A stretch of 40,074 nt of DNA from a virus. The notes beneath the pieces were generated by a model. The model searched no databases. It saw nothing but the letters and a program-made list of their open reading frames with translations, and was not told the origin of the DNA. The translations under genes and the position numbers were made by a program. Each line of letters opens with the position of its first letter. Position 1 is the first letter of the stretch. The DNA lies in the IMG/VR virus record IMGVR_UViG_3300034145_000025, positions 1-40,074 of that record. One strand, written 5' to 3'. Positions 1 to 22,055 of this stretch are shown piece after piece.

Positions 1-288
1 TCAACCCTCCTTTTTCTCTGCCGCCGATTCGCCGCCGGCGGCGGTGCTGGTGACGATCCAGGACGGATCGGGAAGGCCGTTGTCGTAGGGCGCGAAGGTG
101 AAGGCGGCGCCGGTGGCGGCGAGCCGGCTGGCGGCTTCCTCAAATTCCTCGCGCTCGTGCCGCGACACGATCAGCGTCTCGCCCACCGCCATTCGGCCGA
201 GATAGCGCAGGGCGCTCGCCAGCCCCTGTTCCCGCGCCCGCGCAAGGTTCGCCGCACCGCGCGCCTGTATCTCGCCAAGCTCCTTCAC
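1..288 (-). CDS. Hypothetical protein, last gene of the leftward operon
   Basis: 95 aa, GTG start at 288 with only a weak AAGGCGG ribosome site upstream. The protein is Ala/Glu/Arg-rich and mostly helical to about residue 60 (EREEFEEAASRLAATG), then has a short loop-rich tail ending in charged residues. I do not recognise a family. Its first eight codons (VKELGEIQ) are nearly identical to the start of a 21-codon ORF at 662-727, so the two share a recent common origin. A 77-bp space with no visible signal separates it from the BrnA-like gene upstream. The stop codon is the first three bases of the window, so nothing can be said about what lies further left. Confidence 0.6.
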   Translation of the reverse strand: MKELGEIQARGAANLARAREQGLASALRYLGRMAVGETLIVSRHEREEFEEAASRLAATGAAFTFAPYDNGLPDPSWIVTSTAAGGESAAEKKEG

Positions 289-365
289 TTTGCCGCCTTG
301 TGCTTCCCGATGTGGTGAATGAACCGGATTTGGCTGGCTTCACCGTTCCGCGCGCCGGGCGCAGA

Positions 366-665
366 TTAGCGCGCCTTCGGTACGGTGGCTATGTAGCGCT
401 GAAGCACCTCGCCGATCCGCGTCTGCCACCCGGCACCGCCGGCGCGAAAATGCGCGATGACTTCGGGCGGGAGGCGCAAGGTTACCTGCTGCTTCGGCGC
501 ATCGCCAACGGTGGGGCGGCCACGTTTGGTGAGCGTGCCGGTCGCCTGGCGGACGACCTCGCCGGCAAGTGAAAACTCCGCGCGACCCCAAGCTTTCTCC
601 GGCCACTCGGACGCGTCATCCGGATCGACCCAGTTGCTGTCCATTTCGTGTTTTCGCTCGGTCAT
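366..665 (-). CDS. BrnA-like antitoxin-family protein (orphan)
   Basis: 99 aa starting MTERKHEMDSNWVDPDD. The WVDPDDA segment near the start, the linker TKRGRP, and the C-terminal QVTLRLPPEVIAHFRAGG followed by GWQTRIGEVLQRYI match the BrnA family. In that family the C-terminal half is a ribbon-helix-helix DNA-binding domain, and the protein neutralises the RNase toxin BrnT and represses its own operon. The ATG at 663-665 was chosen because GGGAGAG lies just upstream; it overlaps the stop of the 21-codon ORF before it (ATGA). No BrnT-like gene is next to it: the upstream protein has none of the BrnT motifs. It may therefore work as a stand-alone regulator or as an antidote against a host BrnT; both are inferences. 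Confidence 0.8.
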   Translation of the reverse strand: MTERKHEMDSNWVDPDDASEWPEKAWGRAEFSLAGEVVRQATGTLTKRGRPTVGDAPKQQVTLRLPPEVIAHFRAGGAGWQTRIGEVLQRYIATVPKAR

Positions 666-924: not shown

Positions 925-1223
925 CCCTTCTCCCTCTCCGCACGGTGGCGCGCATCCATCGCCATGTCGTGGAGGCGCTGCATGCAGTATGTGTCCGCTT
1001 CCTTGACGCCGTGCGTAGCGATGAAGCTCCGCATCCGGAGCAACACCACCCGCTCCGCTGCCTCCTCCGCCGCCTTCGCTAGCTTTCGAAGATCGAAGCG
1101 GCCATCAAGAACAACATCCTCCGGCGCTTCATCCAGATCGACGTAGTTCCCGCTTTGGCTCTCCATCACCAGACTTTCGGTTAACGCGGCAAGCACGGCA
1201 TCGGGCAGCGTTTCGTGGCTCAA
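921..1223 (-). CDS. Hypothetical acidic helical protein downstream of integrase
   Basis: 100 aa. The start is TTG at 1221-1223: an AAGGAG ribosome site sits 7 bases upstream, and the TTGA overlaps the integrase stop, which together outweigh the usual preference for ATG. The next internal ATG is codon 20 (MESQSGNYVDLDEAPEDV). The N-terminal half is acidic; the C-terminal half is an amphipathic helix region (LRKLAKAAEEAAERVVLLRM) with a basic end. No family recognised. Hairpin copy 1 (1242-1260) lies just upstream of its ribosome site, within the integrase 3' end, so its translation may depend on ribosomes finishing the integrase. Confidence 0.6.
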   Translation of the reverse strand: MSHETLPDAVLAALTESLVMESQSGNYVDLDEAPEDVVLDGRFDLRKLAKAAEEAAERVVLLRMRSFIATHGVKEADTYCMQRLHDMAMDARHRAEREKG

Positions 1224-2560
1224 CTTCTTTCTCCTTCCCGGCGCAAAGTACCACTTTGCGACGATCCTCTGGCATGGCTCATCGCGATCGCGCGCGCCGC
1301 CATGCCGGTGGTGCGGGGCATGTAGGTGTCGAGGATGCGCTTGGTTTCGTCGAGATTATGGCCGGTGATCGCCGCGATCAGATGATCGGGAAGGGCAAGC
1401 TCGCCCTGGTGAACCACGGCGGTGCGGCGGAAGTCGCGATATTGAAGCCCGGCCATTTCCACCGCCGCCTCGCTTGCACCGGCCTTTTCGGCGCGCGCGA
1501 TCGCCGCGGCGCGAAGATCCGCGAAGCGGCGGATGAAGCGGGTTTGCCCCGCCCGGATGTTGGGAAAGGACCAGGGGCGGATTTCATGTTCTTCATCGAA
1601 CAACAAGGTGGCGAGGCCGAAGCCGCGCGCGCGGGCGATTTCCGCCTCGATACGGGCGCGCGTCAGCCCGACGACCGGCACCTCCACCCACCGCTTGCCC
1701 TTGTTCTGGCGAAGCCGGATGCCGCGGACGTCGTGGGGCACATAGCCGGCCCGCCCCGCCAAGGCCGGCACCGGCACCGCGGACAGAGCCTCGAACACGT
1801 CGGCGTCCATCTTGTGGCGGGGGATTTCGACCCATTGGGTCTGCATCAGCTTGAGCAGATCGGCTTCGCGCTGCCCGATCTGGAAAGCGAGGTCGACGGC
1901 GAGCTGCAGCGAGGGCTGGCCGTCTGCGGTGGCGAGAAGCCATTCGCGGGCGTCCGGGCTCCATATCTGGTCGCGCGGCGCCGGCGCGGCGAGCTTGAAA
2001 TCGTCGAAGGGATTGCTGCCCCGGGCGATCAGGCCCTCGCCTTCGGCGAAGCTGAACAAGGTTCGGGCGACGCGCAAGGTGGCATGGGCGGTGGTGTGGC
2101 GCACTTGCCCCTTCCAGCGGCCGCTTTTCGCGGGCTTCATCAGCGCGTCGCGAAGCACCGCCACCCGCTGGGGCGTGATGGCGCTGAGCGGCGCGTCGCC
2201 GCCCCATTTCTCCAGCGTCTTGAACTTGGTTTCATATTCGCGCTGGGTGGAGGCTTCGATGCTGGTGCCGGGACGCTTGACGCTTGGATAGCCCTTGGCC
2301 CGGTACCGCTCGATCAGGGCGCCGAGCGTGCCGCCGCGCAATATCTTTTTCACTTCGCGCGGCTTGGCGCCGCCGCGCAGCCATGTCTCGATTTCGGCAT
2401 TCTGCGCGGCGGCGAGGGCGATCGCGGCAACGGGATCGGCGCCGAGCGCCTTGCCCTTCCACCCCGCCTTGCGCTGCTTGGGCGTCGGTTGCCAATAATA
2501 GCGGACGCCGCCGGCGGTGTTCTTGGGCGTCATGCCGGGCGGGAGATCGAGCTTAGCCAT
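1220..2560 (-). CDS. int: Tyrosine-type site-specific integrase
   Basis: 446 aa, typical length for a phage integrase of the lambda/P4 superfamily, which joins phage and host attachment sites through a covalent DNA-tyrosine intermediate. A SAM-like core-binding domain spans about residues 75-185 and the catalytic domain about 195-420. Catalytic residues visible: R231 in IGQREADLLKL, the second arginine in YRDFRRTAV (378-379), H401 in ITGHN and Y413 in ILDTYMP. The usual HxxR histidine is replaced (R-D-F-R). The ATG at 2558-2560 overlaps the previous gene by 8 bases. Its ribosome site GGGGGA is the 3' arm of hairpin copy 2. The last codons (QSGTLR) are encoded by hairpin copy 1. No attP core is identifiable here. 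Confidence 0.95.
   Translation of the reverse strand: MAKLDLPPGMTPKNTAGGVRYYWQPTPKQRKAGWKGKALGADPVAAIALAAAQNAEIETWLRGGAKPREVKKILRGGTLGALIERYRAKGYPSVKRPGTSIEASTQREYETKFKTLEKWGGDAPLSAITPQRVAVLRDALMKPAKSGRWKGQVRHTTAHATLRVARTLFSFAEGEGLIARGSNPFDDFKLAAPAPRDQIWSPDAREWLLATADGQPSLQLAVDLAFQIGQREADLLKLMQTQWVEIPRHKMDADVFEALSAVPVPALAGRAGYVPHDVRGIRLRQNKGKRWVEVPVVGLTRARIEAEIARARGFGLATLLFDEEHEIRPWSFPNIRAGQTRFIRRFADLRAAAIARAEKAGASEAAVEMAGLQYRDFRRTAVVHQGELALPDHLIAAITGHNLDETKRILDTYMPRTTGMAARAIAMSHARGSSQSGTLRREGERS
1242..1260 (-). repeat. Hairpin family, copy 1
   Basis: CGCAAAGTACCACTTTGCG on the plus strand: 8-bp perfect arms around ACC. Leftward sense has AAAGTGGTACTTT and codons QSGTLR, the integrase C-terminus. 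It ends 19 bases before the TTG start of the next gene and just before its AAGGAG ribosome site. Confidence 0.85.
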
Positions 2561-9173: not shown

Positions 9174-9577
9174 AGCGAAATTTCCTGATTTCCGAACATC
9201 CGGAGGGCAAACAGGGCGGAGACAGTGACCAAGATGAGGATCGGCGCGGCCGTTTCTAACGCACCCATGCGCTTTGTTACCAGGGATCGCCCTTCCTCCG
9301 TTTTCGGGAGCGCCACGGCAAGTGACGCAACGAGCAAGGGCGCGAGGAGGACTGCCGCCGGTAGGATGAAAAGAATTACCCAAAGGCCGAAATATGCGCT
9401 CCCCAGCCACATAGCCGCGAGAAAAGCAGGCCATTTCGAGATTGTTCGAACAACGTACCAGAGTGCGCCATGCGGTGGCGCCGGGCCCCAGGCACCGGCG
9501 AAAGCGCGGGCCACGGAGATTTGCGCTACCATCAGCGTTAACGCCGTAACGACCAGCAATGCGGCGACAGCTGACAT
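9170..9577 (-). CDS. Four-helix membrane protein made with the repressor (exclusion candidate)
   Basis: 135 aa, joined to the repressor gene by TAATG, so it should be expressed in the lysogen. Hydrophobic segments: residues about 2-22 (VAALLVVTALTLMVAQISVA), two close helices around 48-90 (FLAAMWLGSAYFGLWVILF, then PAAVLLAPLLVASLAVAL) and about 110-126 (PILILVTVSALFALRMF). Between the last two is a basic loop (TEEGRSLVTKRM). No enzymatic motif and no family recognised. Membrane proteins co-transcribed with a prophage repressor are often superinfection-exclusion or lysogenic-conversion proteins; that role is inferred from position only. Its stop codon lies inside a repressor operator. Confidence 0.7.
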   Translation of the reverse strand: MSAVAALLVVTALTLMVAQISVARAFAGAWGPAPPHGALWYVVRTISKWPAFLAAMWLGSAYFGLWVILFILPAAVLLAPLLVASLAVALPKTEEGRSLVTKRMGALETAAPILILVTVSALFALRMFGNQEISL

Positions 9578-9918
9578 TATGCCGCCGATGCAGCGTCCTC
9601 GGTGCGATAAGGAATGAGCGCTTCCGTGACCCGCTCAACGCTACGCTGCTGGTCCGGCGTTGCCGCCCGATAGCGCGCAATGATTTCCCGTTCCGCATCC
9701 GAGAGGTGGAGCGGATTGTCCTTCAGGGTCAGGAGATCGGCCGGCATCACGCCAAGGGCGGGCGCTATTCTGCGCATCCACTCAACCGTTAGCTGGATAT
9801 TGCCACGCTCCAAATCCGAGATTTGCGGTTTCGAGCAGCCGACTGCGATCGCAAGGGCATCCTGCGACAAACTCTTCGCGGCTCGAAGCTCACGGATCCT
9901 GTTCGGATAATCCGACAT
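9577..9918 (-). CDS. CI-type prophage repressor, short form
   Basis: 113 aa from the ATG at 9916-9918. Residues about 7-62 are a classic XRE/lambda-type helix-turn-helix domain: IRELRAAKSLSQDALAIAVG, CSKPQISDLERGN, then MRRIAPALGVMPADLL. Only about 45 further residues follow (DAEREIIARYRAATPDQQRS and tail), so the LexA-like self-cleaving peptidase domain of lambda CI is absent. It would hold lysogeny by binding the GTNAGCGATNCGCTTAC sites. No clear ribosome site precedes it, so leaderless or weak translation is possible. It lies back-to-back with the Cro-like gene, the standard switch arrangement. Confidence 0.9.
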   Translation of the reverse strand: MSDYPNRIRELRAAKSLSQDALAIAVGCSKPQISDLERGNIQLTVEWMRRIAPALGVMPADLLTLKDNPLHLSDAEREIIARYRAATPDQQRSVERVTEALIPYRTEDAASAA

Positions 9919-10014
9919 AGCCGTAAGCCGTATGATTTGCGCGGACACAAAAACAGGCGCTAATCCCCGAACATTGGATTGTAAAGATGTAAGCGATCCG
10001 CTTACAGTCTTTTC
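9919..10014. promoter_or_regulatory. Repressor/Cro intergenic control region
   Basis: 96-bp divergent gap. On the rightward side -35 TTGTAA (9979-9984), 18-base spacer and -10 TACAGT (10003-10008) would start transcription near 10015, the A of the Cro-like ATG. A perfect operator GTAAGCGATCCGCTTAC (9989-10005) fills the spacer. A weaker half-matching site (GTAAGC at 9923-9928) lies just upstream of the repressor start. No convincing repressor promoter hexamers were found, though transcription must start here. Confidence 0.7.
9989..10005. promoter_or_regulatory. Repressor operator, right site
   Basis: GTAAGCGATCCGCTTAC: 7-bp perfect arms GTAAGCG / CGCTTAC around ATC, the best copy of the operator family. 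It sits between the -35 and -10 of the rightward promoter, so a bound repressor should exclude RNA polymerase. Confidence 0.8.
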
Positions 10015-10320
10015 ATGTCCGAAGCCGCCCACCCCCTGCGCGCCTGGCGCCTCAGCCAAGAGCCCAAGCTGACGCTTGACGCGGCGGCCGCCGGCGTCGG
10101 AACGTTTCGCGGCACGTGGTACGACTGGGAAACCGGACGGCGCATCCCGGATCGCAGCTACATGGCAAAGCTCTATCGCTACACCGGCGGCGCCGTCACC
10201 CCCAACGACTTCTACGAGCTGCCCGATCTCGGCACGTTGTCGCTCGACCTTCGCGAGCCTGCGCCTTCTGCGCCGCTCCTCGACGCGGTTGCTGCAACGA
10301 AACTTGAGCACGCGGCATGA
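10015..10320 (+). CDS. Cro-like HTH repressor
   Basis: 101 aa. Residues about 6-70 form the phage Cro/Cro-like HTH seen in many proteobacterial prophages: LRAWRLSQEPKLTLDAAAAG, TWYDWETGRRIPDRSYMAKL, then YRYTGGAVTPNDFYELPD. The WYDWE.G.RIP...YM..LY.YT pattern is characteristic. The C-terminal 30 residues are a flexible Pro/Ala tail. There is no Shine-Dalgarno, and the predicted transcription start coincides with the ATG, so the mRNA is probably leaderless. First gene of the rightward transcript; expected to shut down the repressor promoter after induction. Confidence 0.85.
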   Translation: MSEAAHPLRAWRLSQEPKLTLDAAAAGVGTFRGTWYDWETGRRIPDRSYMAKLYRYTGGAVTPNDFYELPDLGTLSLDLREPAPSAPLLDAVAATKLEHAA

Positions 10321-10496
10321 GCGCGCTGAACCATTACCCATCTGGTTCTCCACGGAAGAACGGCGCTCAACCCCCACCAGGCCGAGTCGCCGTGGGGGCA
10401 AGGTTTCACCGCGCACCTTGCTGGGAGATTAACAAAAACGGACATTGTTCGCTCCGTTTCGGCGTTTTCGGCAAGATACGGGAAGTTCGGGCGTGA
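10317..10496 (+). CDS. Small hypothetical protein after Cro
   Basis: 59 aa, overlapping the Cro-like gene by ATGA and the next gene by GTGA. Basic, with a Pro-rich middle (GAQPPPGRVAVGARF) and a C-terminal NGHCSLRFGVFGKIREV. Two small inverted repeats (10371-10398, and GCAAGGT/ACCTTGC after it) lie inside it, so this stretch may instead be a structured leader with attenuator function. Coding call rests mainly on the overlapping start and stop signals. Confidence 0.4.
   Translation: MSALNHYPSGSPRKNGAQPPPGRVAVGARFHRAPCWEINKNGHCSLRFGVFGKIREVRA
10371..10398 (+). repeat. Hairpin downstream of Cro, possible early terminator or attenuator
   Basis: CCCCCAC (10371-10377) and GTGGGGG (10392-10398) with a 14-base loop. 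A second inverted repeat GCAAGGT / ACCTTGC follows at once. No T tract follows. The position right after cro is where lambdoid phages carry a regulated terminator, so attenuation of the rightward transcript is possible. Confidence 0.4.
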
Positions 10497-11888: not shown

Positions 11889-12356
11889 ATGATCGGCCGC
11901 GGCCTTTCCCTTTCCTCCGTGGCGGGGCGGCGCGTGGCGGCGGCGGCAGCGGCGCTTGGCGGTGAATTGTGGGCGCAGCCGGGGCTGGACGCGTCGGCGG
12001 GGCTGCTTCTGCAAAGCGCAACGGTGGCCAACGGCGTGGTCAAGCTGACCTATAACGGCAGCGGCAGCGCATTGTCGCTGGTGCGCTGCACGTCGCCGGA
12101 AGGCATTGCGGCCGGCGACACGTTGCGTGTGACGATCGACGTGCCGTTGTTTGTCGGGCCGGCACCGATCGCGGTCAGAAACGGATCGTCCACTTCGCCC
12201 CCGATGCTCAGCGTCACCGCCGCCGGCCAGTTCAGCGTCGATTTCATCGCCACCGGAAGCTCCAGCTTTTTCTGGATTACCTCCGGCACCGCCAACAGCG
12301 AGGGGCCGAACGGCTCCGAAGTCACCGCCCTTTCGATCCGCAAGGTGCTTGGATGA
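11889..12356 (+). CDS. Beta-rich protein, possible virion or carbohydrate-binding module
   Basis: 155 aa from the ATG at 11889. After a helical, Ala-rich start (VAGRRVAAAAAALGGELWAQ) the sequence is a continuous run of strands: LLLQSATVANGVVKLTYNGS, TLRVTIDVPLFVGPAPIAVR, FSVDFIATGSSSFFWITSG. This resembles a jelly-roll carbohydrate-binding module as found in tail appendages. It lies beside the spike-base-like gene, so the two may form a small appendage cassette in the early region. It overlaps the primase by ATGA. Family not certain. Confidence 0.55.
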   Translation: MIGRGLSLSSVAGRRVAAAAAALGGELWAQPGLDASAGLLLQSATVANGVVKLTYNGSGSALSLVRCTSPEGIAAGDTLRVTIDVPLFVGPAPIAVRNGSSTSPPMLSVTAAGQFSVDFIATGSSSFFWITSGTANSEGPNGSEVTALSIRKVLG

Positions 12357-13519
12357 GCGAGCGGCACGCAATCGACATCAAGGAGCTTGCCCGGATGCTG
12401 GACCAGCATGCTGCGAGCCTTGCGCCCGAATTGCTGCCCAACGGCCGGGCGGAGGGCATGTTCTGGCGGACGTCCAACGTCGCCGACATTCCCACCGGCA
12501 AATTCAGCCTTGCCGTCAACCTTTCGGGAGACAGGATCGGCATGTGGACCGATTTCGGCGCCGCCCGGGGCGCGCCCGACAGGTCCGGCGACATGTTGAA
12601 GCTGGTGGCGGTGACGCGGTTCGGCGGCGATATCCGCGAGGCGTGCAAGTTCGCCCGCTCCTACCTCGGGCTTGACGGGCTTGACCCCGGGCGGCTCGCG
12701 GTGCGGCGCGCGGAAGTGTCGCGTGTGCAGAAATCAGCGGACGACAAGGCGAAGAAGACGGCCGACTGGATGCGCCGCAAGGCCCAGCAAATCTACCTCG
12801 ATCCGCGGGCGGTGCCGATCGAGGGCACACCGGCGGAGGATTACCTTGCCAACCGGGCAATCGACCTTTCGGTGCTTGGGCGGGTGTCGCGGGCGCTGAA
12901 GTTCCACCCGGCGGTGTTGTGCAAGGAAGCCAATGCCGAGCTACCCTGCCTGATCGCCGCGGTGGTGAACGGCGAGGGTCATCAAATCGCGACGCACCGC
13001 ACCTGGCTTCAGCGCACCGCGCGTGGCTGGATGAAGGCGGACCTTGAAGAACCAAAGATGTGCCTCGGCAAGGCGGAGGGCGGCTATATCCCGCTTCACA
13101 AGGGCGCGTCCGACGCGACGTTGCGCCACGTGCCGACGGGAACCGACATCCACGTCTCGGAAGGGATCGAGGACGGGCTGACGGTCGCCAGCGCAGATCC
13201 CGACGCGCGGGTGATCTGCGCCATCTGGCTCGACAACATGCACCATCTGCCGCTCCCCAATCAGATGGGCGCGCTGGTGCTGATCGGCCAGAACGACAAG
13301 CCCGGCAGCGACGCCGAGCGGGCGATGGGGAGCGTCATCGCGCGGCACCAGGAGGCGGGGCGGGTGGTGAAGCATCCGAAGCCTCCGGCCCCGTTCAAGG
13401 ATTTCAACGAAATGGCGCAAGCGGCGCAGGCTTCGCGCCAAAGTGATGGCGCTGGCGCTGCCTCCCCCGGAGGCAGCTTTGGAACCAGCGCCATTTTGGC
13501 GCGGGCGGGTGCCGCGTGA
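12353..13519 (+). CDS. TOPRIM-domain DNA primase
   Basis: 388 aa. The N-terminal part carries MWTDFGAARGAPDRSGDML, close to the 'WxDF.....GGD...L' strand-turn of phage primases. The middle has LPCLIAAVVNGEGHQIATHR and GYIPLH, typical of the primase-helicase region before TOPRIM. The TOPRIM-type segment follows: HVSEGIEDGLTVASADPDAR (catalytic Glu) and LIGQNDKPGSDAERAM in place of the usual D-x-D loop. No zinc-finger cysteines precede it, so template recognition may differ from DnaG. It should prime replication for the helicase two genes on. The last 30 residues are Gly/Ala-rich and encoded by a large hairpin. Confidence 0.8.
   Translation: MSERHAIDIKELARMLDQHAASLAPELLPNGRAEGMFWRTSNVADIPTGKFSLAVNLSGDRIGMWTDFGAARGAPDRSGDMLKLVAVTRFGGDIREACKFARSYLGLDGLDPGRLAVRRAEVSRVQKSADDKAKKTADWMRRKAQQIYLDPRAVPIEGTPAEDYLANRAIDLSVLGRVSRALKFHPAVLCKEANAELPCLIAAVVNGEGHQIATHRTWLQRTARGWMKADLEEPKMCLGKAEGGYIPLHKGASDATLRHVPTGTDIHVSEGIEDGLTVASADPDARVICAIWLDNMHHLPLPNQMGALVLIGQNDKPGSDAERAMGSVIARHQEAGRVVKHPKPPAPFKDFNEMAQAAQASRQSDGAGAASPGGSFGTSAILARAGAA
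13435..13502. repeat. Compound 27-bp hairpin at the primase 3' end
   Basis: Nested perfect arms: outer GCGCCAAA (13435-13442) with TTTGGCGC (13495-13502); middle ATGGCGCTGG (13446-13455) with CCAGCGCCAT (13485-13494); inner GCTGCCTCC (13457-13465) with GGAGGCAGC (13469-13477), loop CCC. Bulges are GTG on the left and seven bases on the right. It encodes the primase C-terminal tail and ends 14 bases before the next start codon. No T tract, so not a simple terminator. Confidence 0.85.
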
Positions 13520-13782: not shown

Positions 13783-13943
13783 TGAGCTGGCGCCTCCACC
13801 CCATCCTCCTGTTCGTCGGTGCGGCGCTCGCGTCGCGCGCGGGCTCTAGCCCCGTGCCCGGAAACGTGGCACAACACGGCACCCCCGCTTCGGGCTTCCA
13901 TGAAAGTAATACTTTCATGGGGTCTCAATTCGAGGCGCTGTGA
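13782..13943 (+). CDS. Short ORF with N-terminal hydrophobic helix
   Basis: 53 aa, MSWRLHPILLFVGAALASRA then GSSPVPGNVAQHGTPASG and HESNTFMGSQFEAL. The start overlaps the upstream stop (TGATG), and its own stop forms TGATG with the helicase start. The first 18 residues could be a signal anchor. Hairpin copy 6 encodes HESNTFM, 20 bases before the helicase ATG, so translation of this ORF would open that hairpin and couple to the helicase. Confidence 0.4.
   Translation: MSWRLHPILLFVGAALASRAGSSPVPGNVAQHGTPASGFHESNTFMGSQFEAL
13898..13920 (+). repeat. Hairpin family, copy 6
   Basis: 10-bp perfect arms CCATGAAAGT (13898-13907) and ACTTTCATGG (13911-13920) around AAT. Outer pairs CCATG/CATGG differ from all other copies. 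Sense codons HESNTFM. It lies 22 bases before the helicase start codon at 13943. Confidence 0.88.
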
Positions 13944-15850
13944 TGGCGGCGGGGGGCAAGCAGGGACTGGGCGATATCGCCGCCGCGCTCGGCAGTGCCG
14001 AGGTGGTGCCGATCAGCGCCCGCGCGGCCGGCGCCGCGAAGCCGCGCAAGCCGTCGCGCTTCGGCGATGCGCCGCCCGATCGCGGCGAGCCGCCGGTGCT
14101 GAAGCAACGGCTTCCCGACAATTGCCCGGTGGTGCCGCTCGGCACCTATAGCGGCCTTTATTATTATTTGGATGAGCTTGGCCAGATACGCGAGCTCAAG
14201 CCCAAGGAGCATGAGAAAAAGAACCTGGAGAGCCTGTTCGGGCGCCAGTCGCATCTGTGCGAGGTATTGTGGCCGCGCTACGCCGCCAAGCCGGATGAGG
14301 AAACCGGCGAGCCGGTTATCAACGGCTGGAAACCGGAAGTGGCCGGCCGCGACCTCATGGCGGCGTGCGCCGACCGGGGCATCTGGCGCGCCCAGGGGCG
14401 GGTGCGCGGCGCCGGCGCCCATCGCGGCGACAGCGGCGAGCTGATCCTCCACTGCGGCGACAAGGTGTGGGCGCAGTGGGGCGACGGCGCCTGCTACAAG
14501 GATCCCGGGCTTCACGGCGAGCATGTCTATCCCGCTTCCGAGCGGACGCCGCGCTTCGCGGCGCGGGGCGTCGGCAGCGACGCAGGGCAGCGCTTGCTGC
14601 ACGTGCTTTCGACGTGGCGCTGGGAGCGGCCGAGCATCTGGAACGGCGAAAGCTGGGAATGGGGCGTCGATCCGATGCTGATGCTCGGCTGGATGTCTCA
14701 CGCGACGATTTGCGGGGCACAGGACTGGCGCGCGGCCGCATGGCTGACCGGCGGCCGCGGCACCGGCAAATCGGCCTTGCAGAACCGCATCATCAAGCCC
14801 TTCTTCGGACGCAACGGCCTGCTTCAGGCGCAGAATGCGTCGGAGGCCTATATCCGCCAGCTGCTCGGCATGCGCACCTTGCCGGTGGCGCTGGACGAGC
14901 TGGAGGCGAGCGCCGACAACCGCAAGGTGCAGGCGATTATCGAGCTTGCCCGCATCGCGTCCTCCGGCGGCACGATCGGCCGCGGCGGGCAGGATCATAA
15001 TCCGCACGAATTCACCGCCAATTCGGCGTTCCTTTTTTCTTCCATCCTGACGCCGCCGCTTGCGCCGCAGGACAGGAGCCGCATCGCCATGCTGGAGCTG
15101 CGCGAGTTCGAAGCGGGCGACAAGCCGCCGGTGATCGAGCCCGGGGAAATGGAGGAGATCGGCCTTGCCGTCCGCCGGCGGATGGTGGACGGATGGGACC
15201 GGCTCGAGGAAACGATCGAGCGCTACAAGACGTGGCTCGGCCAGTACGGCCACGACGCGCGAATGCAGGATCAGTTCGGCACGCTTCTCGCCTGCGCGGA
15301 CCTGGTGCTGTTCGACGATTTGAGCGACGACCAGAGCTATTATCAGGCTTGGGCGGCGCGGCTGGATGCCCGCAACCTCGCCGAAAAGGCCGAGGACGAG
15401 AGCGAAGGCGAGCTTGCCGCGCGCCATATCGGCACAAGCGCCGTGCAGGCGGTGGGCGGAGCGGTGCCGGAGACGGTTTCCGCCTTCCTGCACCGCGCGG
15501 CCGGCAACGACATCACCGACAGCGGCGTCGATACGGCGCGGCGGCGGCTGGAAACGATGGGCCTCAAGCTCATTTCGTCGTGGCTGGACGGGGAGGGGGT
15601 GCGCCGCGTCGGCCGGCCCGTGCCCGACAATCCGGACAAGCCGCTTTTCGTGGCGGTGGCCAACAAGCATCGCGGCCTGGACGCGCTGACCCGCGACACC
15701 CGTTGGTGCGGCGGCGTGTGGAGCCAAGCGCTGAAGCGCCTCAAGGGCGCGGTGCCCAAGCACAACGTTAAGATTGCACACAGGAACGAATGGTGCGTGC
15801 TGGTGCCGGTGAGCTTCTTCGCCTCGATCGGCGAGGGGGAGGAACAATGA
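13943..15850 (+). CDS. Phage replicative AAA-type helicase
   Basis: 635 aa from ATG 13943 (one codon earlier is GTG; TGATG joint favours ATG). Residues about 1-240 form an N-terminal region with YYYLDELGQIRELKPKEHEK. The ATPase core has Walker A TGGRGTGKS (269-277), Walker B LPVALDELEAS (D318-E319), and a later SSILTPPLAPQDRSRIAMLE with likely sensor and arginine-finger residues. This order fits superfamily-3/AAA phage helicases that pair with a separate primase. The C-terminal domain (about 510-635) has a winged-helix look. With the TOPRIM primase upstream it makes up the replication module; polymerase must come from the host. Confidence 0.75.
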   Translation: MAAGGKQGLGDIAAALGSAEVVPISARAAGAAKPRKPSRFGDAPPDRGEPPVLKQRLPDNCPVVPLGTYSGLYYYLDELGQIRELKPKEHEKKNLESLFGRQSHLCEVLWPRYAAKPDEETGEPVINGWKPEVAGRDLMAACADRGIWRAQGRVRGAGAHRGDSGELILHCGDKVWAQWGDGACYKDPGLHGEHVYPASERTPRFAARGVGSDAGQRLLHVLSTWRWERPSIWNGESWEWGVDPMLMLGWMSHATICGAQDWRAAAWLTGGRGTGKSALQNRIIKPFFGRNGLLQAQNASEAYIRQLLGMRTLPVALDELEASADNRKVQAIIELARIASSGGTIGRGGQDHNPHEFTANSAFLFSSILTPPLAPQDRSRIAMLELREFEAGDKPPVIEPGEMEEIGLAVRRRMVDGWDRLEETIERYKTWLGQYGHDARMQDQFGTLLACADLVLFDDLSDDQSYYQAWAARLDARNLAEKAEDESEGELAARHIGTSAVQAVGGAVPETVSAFLHRAAGNDITDSGVDTARRRLETMGLKLISSWLDGEGVRRVGRPVPDNPDKPLFVAVANKHRGLDALTRDTRWCGGVWSQALKRLKGAVPKHNVKIAHRNEWCVLVPVSFFASIGEGEEQ

Positions 15851-16134
15851 ACGCCGTCCCTGCCGTGACGTCGATGCTGCTTGCCGATCTTCACCAGATC
15901 GCGCTCCGCGAGAACCTGACGCCTTGCGATCCCTGGGAAGGCGGGCCGGACGTGTTTCCGGAGCATCCGGACGGCGTGGCGCGTGTGGTTGTCCTGCGGC
16001 TCGACGGGACGCTGGAGACGCAGGCGGTCGACGACAGCCTGGATTGGGCAACGGTTGCGGGCTTCCGCTTCGAGACGCCGTGGGGCCTGCCGGTCGAGGC
16101 GTTCGACGTCGACGATTACGAGGGTGGGCTGTGA
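15847..16134 (+). CDS. Small acidic protein after the helicase
   Basis: 95 aa, ATG overlapping the helicase stop (ATGA). Pattern: MLLADLHQIALRENLTPCDP, then strands ARVVVLRLDGTLETQAVDDS and an acidic end (FDVDDYEGGL). Possibly a replication accessory, given the coupling to the helicase, but no family is recognised. Confidence 0.6.
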   Translation: MNAVPAVTSMLLADLHQIALRENLTPCDPWEGGPDVFPEHPDGVARVVVLRLDGTLETQAVDDSLDWATVAGFRFETPWGLPVEAFDVDDYEGGL

Positions 16135-16730
16135 TGGCCTTCGCTGCCCGCGCCCGCGCCCGTGATAGTTCCGGTCAGCGGAACGGAGGCCCTTCGCCTC
16201 GCACTCCTGTTTGCCGTCTGAAAAGACCTATGCGGACAGCCTTGGCGACGCGGAGCGGCGGCGAGGCGGTGCGTCCGCATTCCGCATCCGTCTCCACCGC
16301 AGGAGGCGTCATCCTAGCACCGCCCAGGGGAGCCCACGAAAGTGGTACTTTCGTGGGTAAACCCGCGCCCGCGCCCGCTGTGTCTTTGCCCGTGCCCGCG
16401 CCCGTGCCCAATGGCTTCATTCAGGAGCGGCGCGCGAAGCCGTTTCAACCGGGGCGCGGGGGTGAAACCGCGTTTGAAACCGGGTTTGAAACGCCTAGAC
16501 CGTTGATAAAGCAGCGAAATCGGCGCGCGTTTCACGGTTTCACCGCCACGCGCCCGCGTAAACATGTGTGCACACGCGCCCGCGCACATGTGAGAACAAC
16601 CATCTATAACTTTGAAACCCGTGAAACTTTGAACCTAAATGGCGGACTTCCGCCGTTTTTCGGTTTCGCCGCGCGTTTCATCGCCGCCGCCGCGCTTGAA
16701 ACGAATAAAATAGGGGGCGGAAATGGCTGA
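16134..16730 (+). CDS. Doubtful 198-codon ORF over a regulatory region
   Basis: An open frame from ATG 16134 (TGATG with the gene before) to 16730, overlapping the terminase small subunit start by 8 bases. Composition is poor for a protein: Arg/Pro/Ala repeats (ARARARD, PAPAPAVSLPVPAPVP) and repeats derived from DNA motifs (ETAFETGFETP). An intrinsic terminator at 16641-16660 lies inside it. Most likely the first part may be translated at best and the rest is a control region. Listed so the frame is not mistaken for a confident gene. Confidence 0.2.
   Translation: MAFAARARARDSSGQRNGGPSPRTPVCRLKRPMRTALATRSGGEAVRPHSASVSTAGGVILAPPRGAHESGTFVGKPAPAPAVSLPVPAPVPNGFIQERRAKPFQPGRGGETAFETGFETPRPLIKQRNRRAFHGFTATRPRKHVCTRARAHVRTTIYNFETRETLNLNGGLPPFFGFAARFIAAAALETNKIGGGNG
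16146..16410 (+). repeat. GCCCGC/GCCCGT short-repeat clusters
   Basis: Runs of the hexamer GCCCGC or GCCCGT occur at about 16146-16163 and again at 16362-16410, either side of hairpin copy 7. A related G-rich version (GGGGCACGGGGCACGGGC) occurs on the same strand at about 17644-17662, before the terminase large subunit. Repeats like these can form G-rich structures on one strand; no function can be assigned from sequence. Confidence 0.55.
16333..16357 (+). repeat. Hairpin family, copy 7
   Basis: 11-bp perfect arms CCCACGAAAGT (16333-16343) and ACTTTCGTGGG (16347-16357) around GGT; the longest stem of the family. In the frame of the doubtful ORF it reads AHESGTFVG, the same frame as all other copies. 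It is the last copy before the virion genes. Confidence 0.88.
16442..16702. repeat. Cluster of ten TGAAAC/GTTTCA hexamers upstream of terminase
   Basis: TGAAAC at 16463, 16475, 16487, 16613, 16622 and 16697; GTTTCA at 16442, 16529, 16537 and 16675. Ten hexamers in 261 bp against about 0.1 expected by chance in random sequence. Several share the longer form TTTGAAAC. An imperfect inverted repeat ACATGTGTGC / GCGCACATGT (16562-16591) lies in the middle. Placement just upstream of the terminase genes suggests binding sites for a regulator of late transcription, terminase (pac/cos) or replication initiation. Confidence 0.75.
16641..16660 (+). terminator. Intrinsic terminator before the terminase genes
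   Basis: GGCGG (16641-16645) pairs with CCGCC (16650-16654) around ACTT, then G and T5 (16656-16660). A short but well-formed rightward terminator, 63 bases before the terminase small subunit. It would separate the early/replication transcript from the virion transcript, implying either read-through (antitermination) or a separate late promoter after it. Confidence 0.6.
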
Positions 16731-17313
16731 GCCGACCGGCGTTGAGGCCGTCGCCGCAGCCGCCCTGACGCGCTCCAAGGAACTGCTGGCCAGTGAGCGA
16801 GCTCAGGAGCTTCGCCAACTCGACCTGCTCGCCGTGCCGGATGCGGAGGCGCTGGCCGATGCCCGCGAGGCACTTGGTGCGGGGGCGCCGCGGGATGCGG
16901 TGGTGGCGGAGGCGCGCCGGCGCGGCCGTCCGCCTGGTGCGAAGAACAAGCGGACCGACGACTTCGCCAAGTGGCTGCTTCAGTTCGGCCCGCATCCGGG
17001 GCTTACGCTGATGCGTGTCCAGGGCATGCCTACCGAGCAGCTAGCGGAGGTAGAGGGCTGCAAGCGGATCGAGGCGCTGGATCGGCAAATCAGGTGCGCT
17101 GAGGCGCTGCTGCCGTACTTCGAAGGGAAGAAGCCGGTGGCGATCGACATGACGGCGCGGGGCGATTTCCGCCTGGTGCTGGGCAAGATCGAGGGCGCTG
17201 GCGAGGCCGGAATGGGCGGGGCGCGCGAGCTGAAGCTGTTGCCGGGGATTGCGGAGCCTGATTTCGAGGAAAATCAGGGACTTAGCGCCGACGAAGATGG
17301 AGCGTCGGAATGA
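16723..17313 (+). CDS. Terminase small subunit-like protein
   Basis: 196 aa, ATG 16723 with GGGGGCGG upstream. A helical N-terminal half (ALTRSKELLASERAQELRQL) leads to a basic DNA-binding-like motif RRRGRPPGAKNKRTDDF. After it comes the segment AKWLLQFGPHPGLTLMRV and EALLPYFEGKKPVAIDM. The GRPPGAKNKRT and LLPYxxxKKPVAIDM elements are typical of small terminase subunits of podoviruses, which recognise the packaging site. The acidic C-terminus (FEENQGLSADEDGASE) could contact the large subunit, which is encoded one gene on. Confidence 0.7.
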   Translation: MAEPTGVEAVAAAALTRSKELLASERAQELRQLDLLAVPDAEALADAREALGAGAPRDAVVAEARRRGRPPGAKNKRTDDFAKWLLQFGPHPGLTLMRVQGMPTEQLAEVEGCKRIEALDRQIRCAEALLPYFEGKKPVAIDMTARGDFRLVLGKIEGAGEAGMGGARELKLLPGIAEPDFEENQGLSADEDGASE

Positions 17314-17741
17314 GTGCGTCGGAGCGGATGGTGCAAGCCTTTGCAGTTGCTGCGTTTTCGTGCGTGGGGCAGAAGCTTCCGAAGCTGATAGCCGCTGCCT
17401 CGCTGGCCTGCGCCGCCGCACTGCCGGCGAGCTGCACGGCCGCATTCGCCGCGCCGATCGAGGCGGAGGGGGGGCGTCCCCCCTTCACCGCGCGCCTCTC
17501 CCATATGGCCAGTGCGCGCCAGCATTTTGAAAATTTCGCCGAAATCGGCTTCGCCGCCCGCCTCCCTCTCCTGATCGCCCCAGCGGGCGCCGGATCAAGC
17601 GGAAACGCGCGGAGCCAAGGCCGCGAACTGAGGTTGGTGGGCCGGGGCACGGGGCACGGGCGTGGGCTCGAGCGCGCCGGGAACGCCTATGGACCCGGCG
17701 CGGGCGCTCTCGCTTCGAAGAGAAGGGGCGCGGGGGTATGA
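17310..17741 (+). CDS. Hypothetical protein between the terminase genes
   Basis: 143 aa, ATGA overlap with the small subunit and another with the large subunit, which supports coding. The first 50 residues contain a hydrophobic, Ala/Cys-rich stretch (LIAAASLACAAALPASCTAA) like a lipoprotein signal or membrane helix. The rest is Gly/Arg/Ala-rich and low-complexity (GRGTGHGRGLERAGNAYGPG). The DNA also has a GGGGGG-CGT-CCCCCC hairpin (17469-17483). Could be a real accessory gene or a spacer holding the packaging site; the evidence is balanced. Confidence 0.35.
   Translation: MSASERMVQAFAVAAFSCVGQKLPKLIAAASLACAAALPASCTAAFAAPIEAEGGRPPFTARLSHMASARQHFENFAEIGFAARLPLLIAPAGAGSSGNARSQGRELRLVGRGTGHGRGLERAGNAYGPGAGALASKRRGAGV
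17466..17486. repeat. G/C hairpin between terminase genes
   Basis: GAGGGGGGG (17466-17474) pairs with CCCCCCTTC (17478-17486), including one G-T pair, around a 3-base loop CGT. Same loop size as the AAAGT hairpin family but no shared core. No T tract follows. Confidence 0.55.
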
Positions 17742-19354
17742 GCGATCATAACGGCGATCTGGATGTCGTCACGATCGGAGAGGCAGGGCCTGTCGCCGCT
17801 TCCTTCGAAGCGAGCCGCGCCTTCATCTCCGGCATAATGGGCCCGGTGGGCGGTGGCAAGAGCATCGCGTGCAGCAAGAAATGCTTGCGGGAGGGCGCGA
17901 AGCAGGGCGGCAAGCGGGACCGCAACGGCGTGCTGTGGCGCAAGGCCCGCGGCGTTGCGATCGGCAAGACCTACCCGATCATCGACAAGAACCTGTTGCC
18001 GACCTGGTTCCGCGTGGTGCCGAAGGAGATCGGGCATTATTCGGGCAACAGCCCGCGCACCCATCGCATTCAGCCGGTGCTGGCGGAGGATGAGCACGGC
18101 AAGCCGACCGAGATGCTGGACCTCACCATGGAGTTCCGCGCGATCGGCGACCACAGCGTTGAAGAAGCGCTGAAGGGCCTCGAAGTCAATTTCGCGTGGC
18201 TTTACGAGATGGACACGCTGCCGGAGACGTTGTGGGCGTTCCTCACCGGGCGCGTGGGGCGCTTTTCCGACATCGGCATGGCGAACCAAGTGGTCGATCC
18301 GATGATTTTCGGCGACTTCAACGCGCCCGACATCGACAATTATTGCTACAACCTCTTTGTCGATAAGCAAATCGACGCGGAGGTGCTGAAGGCACTCGAG
18401 GAGGATTTGCAGGGACGGAGGTTGATCGACTTTTTTCCACAGCCGGGCGCTCGCCACCCCCAGGCGGAGAATATTCCGAACCTGCCCAAGGGCTATTACG
18501 CCCGCCAGATCGCGCTAGCGCCGTCGAAAAACTACATCGACAGAATGATCGACAACAAGTTCGCGCCGGTGCGGCACGGACAGCCGGTGTTTCCGGAGTT
18601 CGATTTCGAGCGGCATATCGCCCGCGAGCCGATCCCCTACGATCCCGCGCGCAAGCTGATCGTCGGCATGGATGCGGGGCTGACGCCGGCGGCGGTGTTC
18701 GTGCAGCGCTCCAGTCTTGGCCAGCTCCGCGTGCTTGCCGAGCTCGCGGTGTTCCCCGGCGAGGAGGAAACTATGGCGCGCGTCGGGGCCACGCGCTTCG
18801 CCCAGGTGTTGAAGCGCTTCATTGTCGAGAATTTTCCCGACGCCTGGGCGTTGCGCGACCTGAACGGGGCGATGCTTGGCGAAGACGGCGGAATAGAATT
18901 CTGGTGCGATCCGTCAGCGAAGGATGGCACCGACAAAAGCGGCAATGAGGGTAGCTGGTTGGAGATTGTCCAAGGGCAGCTCGGCCGGCGCATTCGACCG
19001 GCGCATACCAACAAGCTCCACATCCGCCTGGAAGCGGTGCGCAAGCCGATGATGCCCGGTTCGGTGCTGGACGGCGGGCAGCCCGCCTTCCTGATGTCGC
19101 CCTCGTGCAAGATCCTGCGCAAGGGTTTCCTCTCCGGCTACCATTACCAGAAGGTAGCGGTGGGCGACGGCACAGGCCGGTTCAACGTCGAGCCCAACAA
19201 GAACATGTTCAGCCACAGCCAGGACGCCCTGCAATATGCGGCAATGGCCGACGGCGTGGCCGTCGCCGAAATCCTTGGCCGAGACCCCCGGCGGCGCCGT
19301 GGGAGCGCGCGCCGCGTGGACAGCGGAAACGATCATTTTGCGGGAGAATTCTGA
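17738..19354 (+). CDS. terL: Terminase large subunit
   Basis: 538 aa, near the length of podovirus large terminases. N-terminal ATPase: Walker A GPVGGGKS (35-42), Walker B VNFAWLYEMD with catalytic E157. C-terminal RNase-H-like nuclease: LIVGMDAGLTPAAVFVQ with D312, and HSQDALQYAAM with D496 as metal ligands. It pumps DNA into the procapsid through the portal and cuts it at packaging ends. The start overlaps the preceding stop (ATGA), and it is joined to the next gene by TGATG. The basic C-terminal tail (DPRRRRGSARRVDSG) could contact DNA or the portal. Confidence 0.95.
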   Translation: MSDHNGDLDVVTIGEAGPVAASFEASRAFISGIMGPVGGGKSIACSKKCLREGAKQGGKRDRNGVLWRKARGVAIGKTYPIIDKNLLPTWFRVVPKEIGHYSGNSPRTHRIQPVLAEDEHGKPTEMLDLTMEFRAIGDHSVEEALKGLEVNFAWLYEMDTLPETLWAFLTGRVGRFSDIGMANQVVDPMIFGDFNAPDIDNYCYNLFVDKQIDAEVLKALEEDLQGRRLIDFFPQPGARHPQAENIPNLPKGYYARQIALAPSKNYIDRMIDNKFAPVRHGQPVFPEFDFERHIAREPIPYDPARKLIVGMDAGLTPAAVFVQRSSLGQLRVLAELAVFPGEEETMARVGATRFAQVLKRFIVENFPDAWALRDLNGAMLGEDGGIEFWCDPSAKDGTDKSGNEGSWLEIVQGQLGRRIRPAHTNKLHIRLEAVRKPMMPGSVLDGGQPAFLMSPSCKILRKGFLSGYHYQKVAVGDGTGRFNVEPNKNMFSHSQDALQYAAMADGVAVAEILGRDPRRRRGSARRVDSGNDHFAGEF

Positions 19355-20336: not shown

Positions 20337-20405
20337 TGTGTAAATCGGCGGGGGCGGCAAAGGATGCTGCTCCCGCCCAGTGTAAACCGGGGCGGGGAAG
20401 CAGGT

Positions 20406-22055
20406 ATGAAATACGACGTTGAAACGATCCTGCGGCAGCAAGCGCAGATGGAGAGCGGGCGGAGCCTGTTCGATGCGCAGTGGCTGGAGGTCGCGGAGCG
20501 CGTGCTTCCCCGCCAGGCGGACTTCCTTGGCGCCGGGGCGGTGGCCGGAGGGAAGCGCGGGGCGCGCATTTTCGATGAACATGCGATGCTTGCGCTCGGC
20601 CACCATTCGGCGACCTACGAAGGCTTCCTGATCCCGCGCGGTTCGTTCTGGATGGCGCTCACCGCCGCCGACGAAGCGTTGATGAAGAACCGGCGGGTGG
20701 CGGAATGGTATGACGACAAGACGCGCCAGCTGTTTCGGCTGCGTTACGCCCCCAAGGCAGGGTTCCAGAGCCAGATCCACGAAAGCTTCGACAGCCTTGG
20801 CGCCTTCGGCAATCAGGCGCTGTGGATCGACGGGTTGAAGGGGCTGAATCACACCCCCACCGGCTTGTTCTACCGCTCCATTCATATCGGCGAAATCTGG
20901 GTCCGCACCAACTTCCAGGGGCGGGTGGACCGTACCAACCGCAAATTCACCTTGGAAGCGCGGCAGGCGGTGCAGATGTGGGGCGACAAGGCCCCCGAAT
21001 GCGCGCTGAAGGCGATGAAGGACGGCAAGGAGGGCGAGCAGCACGAATATATTCATGCGCTGTTCCCGCGCGCCGACGCCGATCCGGAGCGGATCGACGG
21101 CCGCGGGCTTCCGGTCGGCAGCATGTACATTGCGGTGAACGGCAAGCAGCTGATCGAGGAAGGCGGCTACCGGAGCATGCCGCTGGTCTATTCGCGCTAC
21201 GAAACCAGCCCGCGCGAGGATTATGGACGCGGGCCGGGCATGAAGGTGTTGCCGGCGGTGAAGGCCTGCCAGGCGATGATGCAATCGCTCGTGCGCGGGG
21301 TCCAGCTCGGGCTGGAGAAGCCGATGGGCGCGCCGCACGAGGATGTCGTCGGCACCGTCGAATTCAAGCCGCGCGGGATCACTTACGGCGCGATCGGCGA
21401 GGACGGCCGCAAGCTGGTGCAGGCGATCTACGAGGAAGGCGACATCGCCTCTGCTCGCGATCTGCTGAACGACGTGCACAGCCGGATCGACGAAGCGTTT
21501 CTGAAGCATCTGATGCCCGTCGGCGAGGAGCTGAAAAGCCACGTTTCGGCGTCGGCGTTCATGCAGCGGGCGGGCGAGCGGGGCATCATCCTGTCGCCGG
21601 TGATGAGCCGGCAGGAAACCGAATTGCTCGACCCGATGACCGAGCGCGAGCTCGACATCATGGCCGATATGGGCCTGCTGGACGATATGCCGCCCGAGGT
21701 GAAGGAAGCGGGCGGCGCGTTCGCGATCCGGTACGACAATCCGCTGTCGCGGATGCAGCGTGCCGAACAGGCGGCGGGCTTCTTCCGGACGTTTGAAGCG
21801 GCGGTACCGGCGCTCAACATCAAACCGGAAATCGTCGACAATTTCAATTTCGACGTGGCGATCCCGGAGCTTGCCGAGATCAATGCGGTGCCGGTGCGCT
21901 GGATGGCCGACCCGAAGAAGCTGCAGGCGGCACGCGCCGTCCGCAAGCAGGAGCAGGAAACGGCGCAGGCCCTTGCCGCCGCTCCGGACATCAGCGGTGC
22001 CGTAAAGAACATCGCCCAAGCCGAGGCGCTGAGCGGTGGAGGCGCACGTGTCTGA
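20406..22055 (+). CDS. Portal / head-tail connector protein
   Basis: 549 aa, close to T7 gp8 (536). The start MKYDVETILRQQAQMESGRS, then QWLEVAERVLPRQADFLG, is typical of the head-tail connector family of T7-like and BPP-1-like podoviruses. The following region with GSMYIAVNGKQLIEEGGYRS, LVYSRYETSPREDYGRGPGM and the C-terminal KQEQETAQALAAAPDISG fit the same family. It forms the dodecameric ring through which DNA is packaged and ejected. ATG 20406 follows GGGGAAGCAGG; an upstream extension from 20364 lacks support. Confidence 0.92.
   Translation: MKYDVETILRQQAQMESGRSLFDAQWLEVAERVLPRQADFLGAGAVAGGKRGARIFDEHAMLALGHHSATYEGFLIPRGSFWMALTAADEALMKNRRVAEWYDDKTRQLFRLRYAPKAGFQSQIHESFDSLGAFGNQALWIDGLKGLNHTPTGLFYRSIHIGEIWVRTNFQGRVDRTNRKFTLEARQAVQMWGDKAPECALKAMKDGKEGEQHEYIHALFPRADADPERIDGRGLPVGSMYIAVNGKQLIEEGGYRSMPLVYSRYETSPREDYGRGPGMKVLPAVKACQAMMQSLVRGVQLGLEKPMGAPHEDVVGTVEFKPRGITYGAIGEDGRKLVQAIYEEGDIASARDLLNDVHSRIDEAFLKHLMPVGEELKSHVSASAFMQRAGERGIILSPVMSRQETELLDPMTERELDIMADMGLLDDMPPEVKEAGGAFAIRYDNPLSRMQRAEQAAGFFRTFEAAVPALNIKPEIVDNFNFDVAIPELAEINAVPVRWMADPKKLQAARAVRKQEQETAQALAAAPDISGAVKNIAQAEALSGGGARV

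Follow-up and report, generated by a model that had tools for sequence, protein, structure and literature searches.

Mirrored arrays of a changeable short word near the helicase and terminase genes of tailed phages as proposed replication origins

Iteron origins that are read by a domain of the helicase itself are known from SaPI and SCC elements, and matched swaps of initiator and origin are known from PLE. Satellite P4 provides a further iteron origin of the first kind; its alpha protein, with the ori/crr iterons, combines helicase, primase and origin binding. In SaPI, the C-terminal domain of Rep recognises an iteron origin located directly downstream of the rep gene, Rep is thought to bind as two hexamers, and the isolated C-terminal domain of Cch2 binds downstream iterons (PMC7581432). 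In the Vibrio cholerae PLE, the DNA-binding domain of the initiator RepA and the origin co-vary and are swapped together, and the origin-directed nuclease Odn of ICP1 selects for origin change (PMC8263062).

The locus described here resembles the SaPI Rep/ori systems (SaPIbov1 and SaPI5) in that a self-loading initiator helicase of related fold (8tch, 7ola, 7om0) is encoded near a putative short-repeat origin; the C-terminal reader was shown in SaPI and is proposed here. In contrast to SaPI, the carriers are tailed phages of Sphingomonas and others, a separate Toprim primase is present in the window, and about 12 sites form a rigid mirror with a GC-alternating centre beside terS. SCCmec Cch provided the closest full-length fold match to the helicase, but the Cch2 site consists of three iterons in 23 bp, without a 12-site mirror array. 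PLE RepA is a RepA_N initiator without a helicase that uses three semi-palindromic iterons of ~30 bp, and two specificity groups are known there versus 16 or more here. P4 alpha, as it is generally described, may be likened to the system in the window, except that it unites in a single protein what two genes, one for the primase and one for the helicase, encode in the window; the more distant relatives phi1422, MQ-4 and PBb002 look like fused primase-helicases encoded by a single long gene.

In the open-access literature, no description was found of the array, of a mirror of 12 rigidly placed sites whose word varies, or of the alternating centre. The genome paper of phi1422 lists repeat regions for other phages only, and the phi1422 array is not in its table. 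Judged on this literature, the array type is apparently undescribed, which is a provisional statement.

The array in the window and its surroundings

The window, i.e., the whole stretch of DNA analysed, is a virus record 40,074 bases long. Because it encodes an integrase, a CI/Cro-type repressor, a primase, a helicase, a terminase-like pair and a podovirus-type connector (Table 1), the phage is temperate and podovirus-like. Family searches gave no match for either the 114-aa gene between the helicase and the array or the terS-like gene. An AT-hook-like stretch, RRRGRPPGAKNK, was observed in the terS-like protein (residues 65-76, window 16915-16950), and GRPxG stretches resembling it were also seen in the terS-like proteins of relatives.

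Table 1. Features of the window and their coordinates (other loci are named where they apply)
Feature	Position	Strand	Remarks
Window	1-40,074		virus record
Integrase	1220-2560	-	
CI/Cro-type repressor	9577-10416	-	
Toprim DNA primase (DUF7146 + Toprim_3)	12353-13519	+	family matches
AAA+/SF3-type initiator helicase	13940..15850	+	GTG start; proposed array reader
Helicase C-terminal winged-helix-like domain	residues about 513-623		modelled
114-aa gene between helicase and array	15790..16134	+	codon score.173
TGAAAC iteron array, proposed replication origin	16442..16702		reverse-complement symmetric; exact sites at 16442, 16463, 16475, 16487, 16529, 16537, 16613, 16622, 16675, 16697
Left flank site	16442..16447	-	TGAAAC on - strand
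Left outer triple	16463..16492	+	TGAAAC at 16463, 16475, 16487; 12-bp spacing
Left inner pair	16529..16542	-	sites 16529 and 16537; 8-bp spacing
Symmetry centre (about 16577)	16543..16612		
Alternating purine-pyrimidine tract ACATGTGTGCACACGCGCCCGCGCACATGTG	about 16559-16592		at array centre
A+T-rich side of array	16596..16640		candidate unwinding element
Right inner sites	16613..16635	+	TGAAAC at 16613, 16622; one-mismatch TGAACC at 16630
Terminator-like hairpin AAATGGCGGACTTCCGCCGTTT	16637..16658	+	weak
Right outer sites	16663..16680	-	one-mismatch GTTTCG at 16663, GTTTCA at 16675
Right flank site	16697..16702	+	
Conserved 22-bp element GAATAAAATAGGGGGCGGAAAT	16703..16724	+	downstream of array; overlaps terS start in window
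22-bp element in relatives	L005 2032-2053; L009 10625-10646		
Small-terminase-like gene (terS)	16723..17313	+	assigned by position
Terminase large subunit	17738..19354	+	tblastn to BcepC6B TerL 31.9%, E 2e-43
Podovirus-type head-tail connector	20364-22055		

The original prediction described a 588-bp control region with ten TGAAAC/GTTTCA sites at nearly a hundred times the random density. All ten exact sites were found, and their density was 96x that of the rest of the window, where 7 copies occur; GTTTCA ranked first among all hexamers of the window for local clustering. However, the sites fill 261 bp and not all 588. The array contains about twelve sites when one-mismatch sites are counted, and these fall at further positions of the layout found in the family (see below); the third site of the right outer triple is missing.

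An open frame across the region (16134-16730, ATG to TGA, 198 codons) overlaps both neighbouring genes and had been regarded as a by-product of composition. Its codon-usage score was -0.118 (+0.23 to +0.39 for accepted large genes), and GC was flat over the three codon positions (.64/.63/.61). Therefore, the frame reads as non-coding, and a coding gene across the region was ruled out, in agreement with the prediction.

Other predicted elements were also present. Three GCCCGC/GCCCGT runs were found (16146-16163, 16367-16378 and 16388-16405); runs of GCCCGY/GCCCAY lie to the left of the array both in the window and in L007 (8057, 8085), and in both a common block, GCGGACAGC..GACGCGGAGCGGCG, flanks them. 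The hairpin said to occur here as copy 7 is the dyad AAAGTNNNACTTT at 16339, one of seven copies in the window (1245, 2575, 6491, 7228, 11716, 13903 and 16339) where none was expected by chance. The outer flanks of the copies differ and are mostly still complementary (CCCCC/GGGGG, CCATG/CATGG, CCCACG/CGTGGG), and among the loci of relatives that were compared, the dyad was seen only in L036 (2 copies). It may act as an operator for a repressor or form a hairpin in RNA. Inverted repeats were present in the region as well. With regard to the predicted terminator, the hairpin exists, and a similar one occurs in L003, L005, L006 and L008, but such matches barely exceeded those in shuffled sequences (4 versus 2.1 expected).

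The 22-bp element that follows the array (consensus GAATAAAATAGGGGGCGGATAT) was found with 0-6 mismatches in 42 of 102 loci, the control minimum being 8, and in many relatives it sits 0-100 bp downstream of the array. Its interpretation as a ribosome-binding site was rejected since, in the clade with the word AGAACC, terS does not begin until about 600 bp further downstream.

Recurrence and geometry of the array in relatives

Single-sequence searches with TerL and with the helicase gave one relative each and none in the genome-contig set. Relatives were gathered by scanning two collections for the pattern of the 22-bp element and by applying helicase profiles to viral contigs. The profile scans yielded 106 helicase-homologue loci, and in 97 of these a two-strand array of 7-13 sites within 330 bp was detected. 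When the array was masked, only 6 of the 106 loci scored, and composition was therefore excluded as the source of the array.

The TGAAAC array itself was absent from the relatives, and the homologous gaps that were inspected carried other words on both strands: GGTAACA together with GGTAGC (L002), GTGTAGC (L004), AGAACC (L005 and L008), CGGGAACC (L006), TTGGGAAC (L007) and GTAACG (L009). The type of L007 also occurs in S. oligoaromativorans (L039), and that with GTAACG in S. parapaucimobilis (L038). The 111 array calls, some of which came from the same or near-identical contigs, yielded 48 best hexamers; these formed 24 groups when one-base register shifts were merged and 16 groups when two-base shifts were merged. 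Failure of related phages to conserve the hexamers had been named in advance as a refutation. The word does change, yet array, spacing and mirror symmetry are nearly always kept. Since the geometry is conserved and the word is not, conservation of the hexamer was the wrong test.

In its canonical form, the layout is < >>> << (centre) >> <<< >, that is, a flank site, an outer triple, an inner pair and the centre, followed by the mirror image. Sites are spaced by 11-12 bp in the outer triples and by 8 bp in the inner pairs, the triple and the pair are separated by ~40-44 bp, and the centre spans 52-112 bp. All 12 sites are present in L011 and L024 (AGAACC) and in L113 (TAGCAG), at about -120, -110, -99, -88, -48 and -40 and at +40, +48, +88, +99, +110 and +120. 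A mirror mate on the opposite strand within 3 bp was found for 420 of 705 sites, compared with means of 254 after strand shuffling and 119 after gap shuffling, two sites per array being symmetric by construction of the centre. An alternating purine-pyrimidine centre of about 40 bp was common to 64 loci (alternation.85-.88 versus.50 in the background), and the A+T content of the family peaks at +40 to +80 from the centre, on the terS side (.61-.65). The alternating tract is Z-DNA-like; in phi1422, A+T takes its place.

The array was located at a median of 213 bp downstream of the helicase gene and up to 5.6 kb from it, with genes often intervening. A terS was detectable in 85 loci, and in these the end of the array was -33 to 709 bp upstream of this gene. 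In L099, the array stays with terS, upstream of the primase and helicase genes, which have moved. Five loci that bear the helicase (L044, L046, L061, L063 and L086) had no clear array in the stretch examined; their arrays may be truncated or degenerate, or another origin may be used.

The array was also found in distant isolates. Bdellovibrio phage phi1422 has 12 GGTAAC sites with mirrored spacings (9, 10, 14, 64, 8, 89, 8, 64, 14, 10 and 9) and an A+T-rich centre. This array (about 14007-14311 of the record) fills a 337-bp gap right behind the primase-helicase gene, and TerL starts at 21819, about 7.5 kb away. In Acinetobacter phage Acjo_20, the primase-helicase gene is closely preceded by 11 GTTACA sites, and terS is at the opposite end of the record. 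In MQ-4, a GGTAAC/CGTTAC array lies 1.6 kb behind the primase-helicase gene, and partial arrays lie near the S-H1 and KLER1-1 genes. No array was found in the 11.6-kb stretch of Bordetella phage PBb002 that was scanned. Where primase and helicase form one long gene, as in distant isolates, the link between array and terminase is broken.

The helicase and covariation of the word with phage proteins

The helicase was modelled with AF2 from a 52-sequence alignment (pLDDT 88). Over 416 residues (model 56..632), the best near-full-length match of the model was SCCmec Cch (5dgk, Z 15.9, rmsd 5.6), followed by the SaPI5 primase-helicase (7om0, Z 15.0); SaPIbov1 Rep (8tch, E 8e-6), 7ola and vaccinia D5 were matched as well. 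By structure match, the protein encoded in the window therefore has the Rep/Cch fold and belongs to the AAA+/SF3-type helicases. At the sequence level, a PDB search with the helicase retrieved no SaPI or Cch chain, and DUF927 matched 4 of the 52 members only (best E 3e-4). The C-terminal domain was modelled with helices and paired strands and is winged-helix-like; taken alone, it gave only a weak fold match, namely TcpK, which binds DNA (Z 4.6).

Covariation was studied with a continuous measure of word similarity and partial correlation controlling for identity of the helicase core. Word similarity correlated with helicase residues 561-636 in set 1 (.36, p.001) and in the pairs involving new independent loci (.22, p.014). 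The corresponding values for TerS were.07 and -.03 (n.s.); at a looser identity cut-off (.45), TerS reached.20 in set 1, which was weaker than the helicase, and lacked significance in the new pairs. The word also correlated with helicase residues 60-240 and, less consistently, with the primase; no correlation was found for the ATPase core (241-395). A binary test of same versus different word with helicase residues 560-636 gave p.009 and.0085 in set 1 and p.32 in the second set, and the continuous measure was weighed as moderate evidence only. Prediction of the word from the nearest neighbour succeeded in 12-20 of 44 cases for all proteins, TerS being the lowest, and indicated no clear reader.

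The word thus travels more with the replication proteins than with TerS, to a moderate degree. Because helicase residues 60-240 and the primase also track the word, covariation does not single out the C-terminal domain. This domain is probably the reader, as the modelled structure and the precedent of known systems favour it more than covariation alone does.

Function of the array

The original prediction offered three readings of the region: a replication origin, a packaging recognition site and a binding array for a late activator. The first of these was the best supported, packaging through TerS was a weaker rival and the late activator gained no support. There is good reason to regard the region as an iteron-type origin of phage DNA replication. 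This reading is favoured by the recurrence of the array with this helicase family, by the fixed mirrored layout under changing words, by the Cch-like fold of the helicase, by the closer tie of the word to replication proteins than to TerS, and by the arrays beside the primase-helicase genes of phi1422 and Acjo_20. As in SaPI and SCC elements, an array of short iterons lies near the gene of an initiator. Most likely, about twelve copies of the short word, mirrored round a central tract, would make up the origin, and the self-loading AAA+ helicase of the phage would bind them through its C-terminal winged-helix-like domain. Two helicase rings would assemble head-to-head, one per mirror half, and open the A+T-rich side, and the neighbouring Toprim primase would prime two forks, so that replication would most likely start bidirectionally. 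GC skew, proposed as a check for an origin, showed no switch at 16.5 kb in the window. Counting against an origin is the position of the array, just upstream of terS in the clade of the window and often separated from the helicase. The missing skew switch, the binary word test that failed in the second set, the weak fold match of the C-terminal domain and the lack of an array in the scanned stretch of PBb002 also weigh against this reading.

This constant proximity to terS, together with L099, where array and terS stand together apart from the helicase, is the best argument that the array is a pac/cos-type packaging initiation site bound by TerS. The array stays near terS even when genes part it from the helicase, and the conserved 22-bp element adjoins the array. 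Nevertheless, such a site is unlikely, considering that the word does not co-vary with TerS. The word of L049 differs from that of L008, L091 and L096 although their terS are 69-76% and their terL 79-81% identical, and L009 and L021 share their word with L052 and L056 although the terS are 31-33% identical. Moreover, packaging is one-directional and ill matched by mirror symmetry, and the arrays of phi1422 and Acjo_20 are distant from the terminase genes.

That the array serves as an operator for a late activator or repressor of the terminase and structural operon is less probable still. The late genes do come after the array, a Cro/CI-type repressor is encoded in the window, and TGAAAC is similar to some promoter -35 boxes. 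However, outside the array, TGAAAC occurs at only 7 scattered places in the window, a sigma-70-like promoter was not found in the region, a 12-site mirror that persists through changes of word is unlike an operator, and the same layout occurs beside the primase-helicase genes of phages with other late operons. A partition or centromere-like (parS-like) site, or an artefact of composition, is the least credible reading. TGAAAC is half of the consensus ParB site, and simple GC repeats are abundant in the region, but no ParA or ParB was found among the window genes scanned, and the converging half-sites are at least 21 bp apart, so no parS palindrome is formed. The words in relatives are unrelated, and the masked controls rule out composition.

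If the array is regarded as a replication origin, a likely origin is pointed out in about a hundred phage genomes, including isolates such as phi1422. It is conceivable, and is suggested here only tentatively, that the origin is a geometric scaffold on which all ~12 words and their reader switch together, giving each lineage a private replication code under the pressure of conflict, with the alternating centre as an added structural switch. Such conflict could arise from origin-directed nucleases, satellites and co-infecting phages that steal initiators. Co-change of initiator and sites has so far been studied in few origin types, e.g., the two PLE groups. If the suggestion is true, the ~100 helicase-word pairs would constitute a natural data set on how winged-helix readers come to recognise a different DNA word, and these many protein-word pairs may show how an initiator and a dozen sites shift their specificity together on an unchanged architecture.
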